Below are positions 6,615 to 7,497 of a stretch of DNA of 47,740 bases, piece by piece (the first letter of the stretch is position 1; every line of letters begins with the position of its first letter). The notes below the pieces were generated by a model, which worked only from the letters and a program-made list of their open reading frames with translations, searched no databases and was not told the DNA's origin. Origin of the DNA: Clostridia bacterium. Its GTDB lineage: Bacteria > Bacillota > Clostridia > Christensenellales > Aristaeellaceae. A program made the translations under genes and the position numbers. The stretch lies in contig JAFWSH010000025.1 of assembly GCA_017519405.1 (NCBI GenBank), forward strand, positions 1 to 47,740, in the 5' to 3' direction.

Positions 6615-7340
6615 TCAGTTCCCGTGGCAGTGATGGTCTGCACAGTGGTCATGACCGCAGTCGCCCTGGTGATGCTCGTGATGATCGCAGCGGGCGTCAG
6701 GATCATAGGCCAGTGTGCCTGCGGCGAGTGCCCGGGCTGCCTCATCCGCGGAGCCCTGCACACCGGCGTAGAGCCGGATGCCGGCGTCGGCCAGCGCCAT
6801 CTGGGCGCCCATGCCGATGCCGCCGCAGATCAGCGCGTCCACCCGGGCAGCCTGCAGGAAACCGGCCAGGGCCCCGTGGCCGTATCCGTCGGTATCCACC
6901 ACCTGTTCGTCCGTGATCTTTCCGTCGTTCACGTCGTAGAGCTTGAACTGCTCCGTATGGCCGAAGTGCTGAAAGACTTCCCCGTGATCGTATGTGACAG
7001 CAATCCTCATCGATTCCAACCCTTTCTCTCTGATGTTCTGCCGGAGTGCAACCGGTTCAAAGGAGCAGCAGCCGCCCGTGATCAGGAGCCGCTTTCCGTG
7101 GACAAGCGCGTCGGCGACCTTTTGCCTTGCGCTCTCGTAGATGGCCGTGACGGTCGTCCGGGCGATGTTCATTCTGGCCGCACAGGCCTCCTGTGTGAGC
7201 CCCTCGTCATCCAGCAGTCTCAGCGCCTCAAACTCGTCCACCGTCATGCGGACAGACTCAGCGGCCGTGATGTCATCCGGCGAGAAGCTCCGGTAGACCG
7301 GAAGCTGCTCAATTCTGCGGCAGCGGAATGGCCGCGGCAT
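6615..7340 (-). CDS. DUF134 helix-turn-helix protein fused to NifX/NifB-like cofactor-binding domain
   Basis: This 241-residue protein joins two families. Residues 1-95 match DUF134: MPRPFRCRRIEQLP at the start and a sigma-region-4-like helix-turn-helix around TVDEFEALRLLDDEGLTQEACAARM. Residues about 112-215 match the dinitrogenase iron-molybdenum cofactor domain (NifX/NifB C-terminal), starting MRIAVTYDHGEVFQHFGHTEQF and including CGGIGMGAQ. The last 24 residues hold nine His and four Cys, a likely metal-binding tail. No nitrogenase gene is nearby, so a metal- or Fe-S-responsive regulator is more likely than nitrogenase maturation; that is inference. I chose the ATG at 7340, which follows AAGGAGG by 6 nt and gives the family N-terminus. 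Two identical palindromes flank its promoter, suggesting autoregulation. Confidence 0.9.
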   Translation of the reverse strand: MPRPFRCRRIEQLPVYRSFSPDDITAAESVRMTVDEFEALRLLDDEGLTQEACAARMNIARTTVTAIYESARQKVADALVHGKRLLITGGCCSFEPVALRQNIREKGLESMRIAVTYDHGEVFQHFGHTEQFKLYDVNDGKITDEQVVDTDGYGHGALAGFLQAARVDALICGGIGMGAQMALADAGIRLYAGVQGSADEAARALAAGTLAYDPDARCDHHEHHQGDCGHDHCADHHCHGN

Positions 7341-7355
7341 GCGCATCCTCCTTTC

Positions 7356-7367
7356 TGACATATGTCA
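7356..7367. promoter_or_regulatory. Operator copy 1, TGACATATGTCA
   Basis: This perfect 12-bp palindrome covers the expected transcription start of the DUF134-NifX gene, about 7 nt past its -10 box, and lies just before the ribosome site. An identical copy lies 33 bp upstream. Confidence 0.75.
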
Positions 7368-7372
7368 TATTG

Positions 7373-7401
7373 AATATAGCACAGTAGATGACATATGTCA
7401 A
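7373..7401 (-). promoter_or_regulatory. Promoter of the DUF134-NifX gene
   Basis: A consensus -35 TTGACA (7396-7401) is separated by exactly 17 bp from TATATT (7373-7378) on the minus strand. The -35 box overlaps the distal palindrome. Confidence 0.85.
7389..7400. promoter_or_regulatory. Operator copy 2, TGACATATGTCA
   Basis: This is the second perfect copy of the 12-bp palindrome and overlaps the -35 box. The centres of the two copies are 33 bp apart, about three helical turns, so two dimers could bind the same face. Confidence 0.75.
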
Positions 7402-7461: not shown

Positions 7462-7497
7462 AAAATGCTCTGCCGATCTGTCATGACCGGCAGAGCA
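7462..7497 (-). terminator. Intrinsic terminator after the secreted-protein gene
   Basis: TGCTCTGCCG (7466-7475) pairs with CGGCAGAGCA (7488-7497). On the minus strand the stem is followed by TTTTC. Confidence 0.8.

Follow-up and report, generated by a model that had tools for sequence, protein, structure and literature searches.

Twin palindromes at the promoter of a DUF134–NifX gene: a probable operator for autogenous control by a DUF134 protein

In the 47,740-nucleotide stretch of Clostridia DNA analyzed here (the window), two exact copies of the 12-bp palindrome TGACATATGTCA lie across the promoter of a gene encoding a DUF134 helix-turn-helix (HTH) domain joined to a NifX-like domain. Pfam lists DUF134 (UPF0251) among its families of unknown function. 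The locus raises the question of which protein reads this pair of sites, and to what effect. Our analyses indicate that the palindromes are most probably the operator of the DUF134–NifX protein itself, which would repress its own gene while its NifX-like domain and tail sense a metal or a cluster.

Both parts of the protein, as named in the first-pass annotation, are recognized above the curated Pfam cut-offs: PF02001 matches with an E-value of 2.2e-21 (76.7 bits versus a cut-off of 27) and PF02579 with 2.1e-18 (66.8 bits versus 26.3). The latter score establishes a NifX-type domain, for which cofactor binding is putative. In a structure search, the C-terminal domain matched PH0822, the orange protein ORP, NifX and NafY; retroviral integrases also appeared as fold matches, with an rmsd of 16–19, and were judged spurious. 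A Pfam scan detected no sigma region 2, which binds the core and the -10 element (E 0.001), and no SorC-type effector-binding domain, the remainder of the protein matching PF02579 only. Translation likely begins at the ATG at 7340 rather than at the start of the longer open reading frame (7361), judging from the Shine–Dalgarno sequence GAAAGGAGG ahead of this ATG; position 7361 falls within the second palindrome. The features are listed in Table 1.

Table 1. Features of the DUF134–NifX gene and its promoter, in window coordinates
Feature	Position	Strand	Basis and remarks
DUF134–NifX gene	6615..7340	minus	ORF and Pfam; likely start ATG 7340-7338, stop 6617-6615
DUF134 domain, putative sigma-region-4-like HTH	7071..7343	minus	PF02001 and fold comparison
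Recognition helix, residues 63-83 (numbered from ATG 7346), begins RTTVTAIY	7098..7160	minus	AlphaFold2 models, alignment
Nitro_FeMo-Co (NifX-like) domain	6726..6983	minus	PF02579 and fold matches
His/Cys-rich tail, possible metal ligands	6618..6689	minus	sequence; retained in relatives, length variable
Operator 1 (candidate), TGACATATGTCA	7389..7400	no strand	exact match; overlaps -35 box
Operator 2 (candidate), TGACATATGTCA	7356..7367	no strand	exact match; spans expected transcription start, abuts Shine–Dalgarno
-35 hexamer TTGACA	7396..7401	minus	promoter scan; five bases (TGACA) common to operator 1
Extended -10, TGC + TATATT (7378-7373)	7373..7381	minus	promoter scan
Shine–Dalgarno GAAAGGAGG	7347..7355	minus	sequence; kept beside operator 2 in relatives
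Terminator-like hairpin	7466..7497	minus	pattern scan; weak, 0.6 such sites expected by chance in region scanned

The two perfect palindromes are 33 bp apart from start to start, with a 21-bp gap between them. They sit where the first-pass annotation had placed them, one on the -35 box and the other at the expected transcription start with the -10 hexamer TATATT in between, and both the coordinates and the promoter scan agree with this layout. The scan gave 11/12 matches on the minus strand, a -35/-10 spacer of 17 bp and the TG of an extended -10. In the window, three TGACATATGTCA sites with at most two mismatches were found versus 0.63 expected, and perfect 12-bp palindromes of any sequence number 24 versus a mean of 17.9 in Markov windows. 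The TGACATATGTCA pair is the sole palindrome repeated within less than 100 bp in the window, and such pairs arose in 0/60 first-order Markov windows. Its presence at the DUF134–NifX promoter is no chance occurrence. The hairpin farther upstream probably belongs to the upstream gene, leaving the DUF134–NifX promoter to open its own unit.

The arrangement is retained in close relatives, for which we used the best 80 of 125 from a profile of four proteins. These 80 are mostly ruminant-gut MAGs with the labels Lachnospiraceae, Oscillospiraceae, Selenomonadales, Solobacterium, Spirochaetales and others. The search upstream of orthologues that had been proposed for this palindrome was made in the stretch of at most 260 bp ahead of YRSFSPDD, a conserved anchor of the DUF134 domain, with at most two mismatches; at least one site was found in 80/80 of these best relatives, so the palindrome is not absent from them. 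Two sites were present in 76, three in one and one in three, while among 2,994 control tiles of 215 bp cut from these loci a site turned up in 22. In the 77 relatives with at least two sites, the spacing is 34 bp (62 cases), 33 bp (13), 35 bp (one) or 44 bp (one). Of the 73 distinct promoters, 66 have the exact TTGACA at operator 1 and 63 have their best -10 at a 17-bp spacing, and operator 2 is followed by GAAAGGAG with 89–98% conservation per position. A conserved candidate operator that overlaps the promoter elements of its own gene is thus observed, with two or more sites in 77 of these 80 (best of 125). Judging from their sequences, the identical sites before the relatives' genes very probably represent the predicted DNA grip by which the DUF134 family controls itself.

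Such conservation might also arise if the repeats were a promoter or leader element devoid of any protein operator function and kept by recent descent or transfer, and gene exchange is possible among relatives that come for the most part from ruminant guts, as MAGs, and carry the labels of several orders. We consider this extremely improbable, however: the sites stay while most of the spacer positions between them vary in the 73 distinct promoters, they are still found at 37–60% domain identity and where the operon is laid out differently, and operator 1 lies upstream of the transcription start and is therefore absent from the RNA.

In the source genome (2.27 Mb, 80% complete), TGACATATGTCA occurs in four exact copies and at five sites when one mismatch is allowed: two at the window gene, two at a second DUF134–NifX gene and one that falls within a long coding frame (L004). 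The second gene, on contig C10, encodes a protein of 80% identity, and both of its sites are kept, 34 bp apart, around a different spacer. The scan with at most one mismatch of this 80%-complete genome found no trans targets besides the two DUF134 genes, and the detectable targets in the source genome are thus the own gene and its paralogue only. About seven direct repeats of 21 bp (GATAACCCTACGGGAG...) lie upstream of the second gene (L001:1580-1724, G000:C10), and two serine-recombinase-like genes follow downstream (L008), an arrangement suggestive of a mobile element.

The link between site and gene was then followed across 200 genomes of the family. The twin core GACATATGTC-N22-25-GACATATGTC was found in 10 of them and its reversed control in none, and all 10 occurrences are at a DUF134–NifX gene, which in G076 is cut by the contig end. 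The nine genomes other than G076 are among the 34 with the protein at an E-value of 1e-60 or better; the exact twin core is missing in the other 25 of these 34, several of which have degenerate, single or variant sites. A count of exact single sites in 20 genomes that have the gene gave 25, spread over 18 genomes; 22 lie at the gene, and the remaining three are in long reading frames (two) and on G100 C61 (one); G091 and G119, also among these 20, have degenerate copies only and no exact TGACATATGTCA. Twenty genomes without a gene of the window type contain five sites in four genomes: one heads a split NifX/DUF134 operon, a second, in tandem, precedes a rubredoxin-type gene, a third is next to a CRP-like gene, and the remaining two fall within long reading frames. 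The near-exclusive association with DUF134 genes is directly supported by these counts.

Two comparisons help to decide which half of the fusion the sites accompany. In the one split-gene case examined (G005/L308), a twin site, TTGACATATGACG and TGACATATGTCA 39 bp apart, heads the operon of separate NifX and DUF134 genes. As a control, we took 20 genomes without PF02001 above the cut-off, eight of which have a NifX-type gene and are free of any PF02001 match; no site with at most two mismatches was found upstream of the NifX genes in these eight, and one 2-mismatch match lay downstream of a NifX gene. Since the split operon carries the sites and the NifX genes of the eight PF02001-free genomes have none upstream, the site goes with DUF134 rather than with NifX.

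These results bear on a further possibility, that another regulator of the CRP/FNR or SorC/DeoR type binds the palindromes and controls the DUF134 gene. The 12-mer is the core of the CRP site gtGtGAcatatgTCaCactttt in the passages available from PMC4655474, and one exact site in another genome adjoins a CRP-like gene (L305). The right half of the Bacillus subtilis DeoR operator is TTACATATGTTCAA in the excerpted text of PMC11229326, and it shares 14 matches over 15 letters with a distant DUF134 site, TTGACATATGTTCAA. We nevertheless regard control by another regulator as very unlikely. At operator 1, TGACA is preceded by A (91%) and T (100%), whereas CRP needs T and G, and a CRP/FNR site was rejected on these flanks, which do not fit TGTGA-N6-TCACA. 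Moreover, the twin core occurs at DUF134 genes only, among the 200 genomes, and the operator letters follow the residues of the DUF134 helix, as described below.

On the larger scale, DUF134 scores above the cut-off in 105/149 genomes sampled from the phylum, and our survey covered 150 distinct DUF134 genes, mostly across the phylum; beyond the phylum, the analysis took in one MAG labelled Spirochaetales (L094). A site with at most one mismatch was present in the upstream stretch (at most ~760 bp) of 76/150 genes and absent from that of 74/150. Helices of the SRPTF or SRQT types account for 45 of these 74, so autoregulation through this site is not universal in the family. Sites or variants reach DUF134 genes down to 37% domain identity, though some of these genes have none. 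The suggestion of the first-pass annotation that the layout might define a repressor operator for DUF134 proteins is thus borne out as a prediction, from the 80/80 relatives (best of 125) to about half of the surveyed family. For the 46 loci with flanks of at most 1.5 kb, 25 have a site (at most one mismatch) versus 0, 1 and 2 in the Markov controls; by helix, these are 17/18 loci with RTT(V/A) and 8/28 of the others.

The site was also recovered de novo when k-mers were counted in the upstream regions of 85 DUF134 genes with helices other than RTT(V/A), the known site not being supplied; 17 loci in which the regular expression missed the domain were dropped from the motif work. Among the top k-mers were TATGTCAA, AACATATG, ATGTCAATAA and CATATGTTCA, beside words from the conserved MPR start and A/T-rich words, and where they overlap they spell ACATATGTCAATAA and AACATATG(T/C). 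A degenerate score of at least 11/12 was reached by 19/85 genes versus 0.5 in Markov controls. In 55 promoters outside the subclass of the window, selected for having a site, TTGACA is at the first site in 49 and a -10 (at least 4/6) at 16–18 bp in 47; 15 of the 55 have two sites (at most one mismatch), 28–43 bp apart. Strict helical phasing, which the 33/34-bp spacings and the single 44 would fit in the window's subfamily, was rejected on this range elsewhere. Several sites lie 350–620 bp upstream of the anchor, distances explained by a DUF134 gene that is second in its operon, after a small gene (L042-like) or NifX (L308). Pfam identification in the distant operons (L042, L308 and the NifU of L016) assigned the small first gene of L042 to DUF5320; NifX and Mrp-type ATPase genes lie downstream in such operons, and L016 has a NifU-like gene.

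Our comparison of helix class with operator is summarized in Table 2, and the covariation is observed directly.

Table 2. Operator matches (at least 11/12, within ~245 bp upstream) by recognition-helix class
Helix class	Genes with a match
RTTVT(A/S/N)IY	TGACATATGTCA 21/21
RTT(V/A)TEI	CGACATATGACG 4/4; TGACATATGTCA 0/4
Other RTT(V/A)	TGACATATGTCA 11/40; TGACATATGTTC 4/40
SRPTFH	TGACATATGTTC 6/10; TGACATATGTCA 1/10
SRPTFF	TGACATATGTTC 2/5
Other SRPTF	TGACATATGTTC 3/34; TGACATATGTCA 1/34
SRQT	0/12
Remaining helix classes	3/24 in all

When the residue after the arginine is T, GACATATGTC is found in 42/68 genes, versus 0/17 when it is A or S; GGCATATGCC accompanies A or S in 4/17 and any other residue in 1/133. 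The latter variant came to light through the genes lacking the site, in which, besides A/T-rich words, GCATATGC was the only notable motif (9/73) and led to the R(A/S)T operator variant. Another variant, the pair CGGCATATGTCA and TGACATATGCCG 23 bp apart, precedes ARTTVQQIY-type genes (L184, L185). For the TEI class, a scan of 300 genomes gave 46 CGACATATGACG sites in 40 genomes, most of which are due to chance since the reversed control was also frequent. Of 30 fetched sites, 11 are at DUF134 genes, all with TEI helices (four known, seven new); the other 19 did not register as lying at a DUF134 gene in our test, and CGACATATGACG alone was rejected as a specific marker. In all 11 TEI cases the site lies between the -10 and the Shine–Dalgarno sequence, and a degenerate upstream site accompanies it only in L332. 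The operator variants track the residues of the DUF134 recognition helix, although the genes are related and not independent, so that the covariation perhaps reflects few events.

Regarding the mechanism, we infer direct binding by the DUF134 protein, its dimeric or tetrameric state, and the nature and sign of its signal. A dimer of the HTH domain would sit on each palindrome, with one recognition helix per half-site TGACA, and occupation of both sites would cover the -35 box and the transcription start and thus block RNA polymerase. The NifX-like domain and the His/Cys tail would probably sense a metal or an iron-sulfur-type cluster, altering the affinity for DNA. The placement of the sites, which is observed directly, points to repression rather than activation. 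NarL/LuxR-type relatives of the DUF134 fold can activate, the -35 box and the operator have bases in common, and contact between a sigma-region-4-like domain and the polymerase is conceivable; DUF134 could therefore bind the sites and activate or tune its own promoter (dual control) with no repression. We hold this to be unlikely: operator 2 lies over the start and directly against the Shine–Dalgarno sequence, the clear site of the TEI class is downstream of the -10 with L332 adding only its degenerate one, and both promoter hexamers already come close to consensus, so that an activator would be unneeded.

Autorepression of the kind proposed here has several counterparts. IscR, Fur and Zur are Fe-S- or metal-responsive repressors with palindromes that overlap promoters, and by analogy DUF134–NifX would work like them as a probable metal or cluster sensor, while its protein family and operator differ. 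The fold of its C-terminal domain is common to the cofactor proteins ORP, NifX and NafY; the orp operons of Desulfovibrio vulgaris are reportedly coregulated by sigma-54 and a cognate regulator, unlike the DUF134 repressor proposed here. In the models, the DUF134 HTH may resemble region 4 of sigma-70, the -35 binding domain. Unlike sigma-70, the protein has no region 2 and so is no sigma factor, and the inferred dimer on an inverted repeat would block the polymerase instead of recruiting it. The SorC-family repressor DeoR of B. subtilis (7bhy, 8r7y) may be similar in its DNA-binding domain: 7bhy is the first solved-structure match by sequence profile, at a non-significant E-value of 0.037, and the DeoR fold is among the nearest to the DUF134 HTH (Foldseek E 0.1, rmsd 0.5 over 40 columns). 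According to the excerpted text of PMC11229326, DeoR reads two half-operators that partly overlap the promoter, its tetramer spans both, and its right half-operator contains ACATATGTTCAA, as do the sites of distant DUF134 genes. With this precedent, a DUF134 tetramer across both sites is plausible. DUF134–NifX is unlike DeoR in having no SorC effector domain, a NifX-like partner and two full palindromes at its own gene.

An HTH autorepressor with a promoter-overlapping palindrome is thus of a known kind, whereas the family, the operator and the helix code appear to be new. No description of a DUF134 operator was found in the literature searched, which comprised titles and abstract openings, passages of PMC10434189, PMC5886521, PMC6345978 and PMC4655474, and few subscription papers. 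We also put forward, tentatively and with slightly less than even confidence, a wider reading in which DUF134 proteins would be phylum-wide repressors that look like sigma region 4. Their operator would consist of head-to-head -35 hexamers (ideally TTGACA-TA-TGTCAA), its letters would be predictable from helix residues 64 and 68, and the fused NifX protein would be an autogenous metal-cluster carrier-repressor. As the half-site TTGACA is the -35 hexamer and the HTH appears sigma-region-4-like, the repressor would compete with sigma for these bases; if so, an HTH of the type that reads the -35 is used to block the -35. With no detectable targets in the source genome other than the regulator's gene and the paralogue, this fusion protein would set its own amount.

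The helix-to-letter code makes DUF134 directly testable as a DNA-binding regulator and provides a handle for finding targets, and it suggests a way in which gut anaerobes control metal-cluster carriers. The candidate targets so far are DUF5320, NifU-like, NifX, Mrp-type ATPase and chromate-type transporter genes, and perhaps a rubredoxin operon. With regard to the last, the tandem TGACATATGTTGACATATGTCA stands before a rubredoxin/rubrerythrin-type gene and a ferredoxin-like frame (L309:1491-1512, G014:C20), and is a possible trans target in a genome with another DUF134 gene. On another contig of that genome, an exact palindrome lies between CRP/FNR-like and transporter-like frames (L305:1501-1512, G014:C19). 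A Chromate_transp (PF02417) gene directly follows a DUF134–NifX gene at L012:2308-2877, and the same chromate-transporter cluster is next in 6/54 placed contexts, the window not being one of them; these neighbour counts are rough, being based on crude ORF calls that placed the gene in only 54/84 contexts, long antisense frames having won in the rest.
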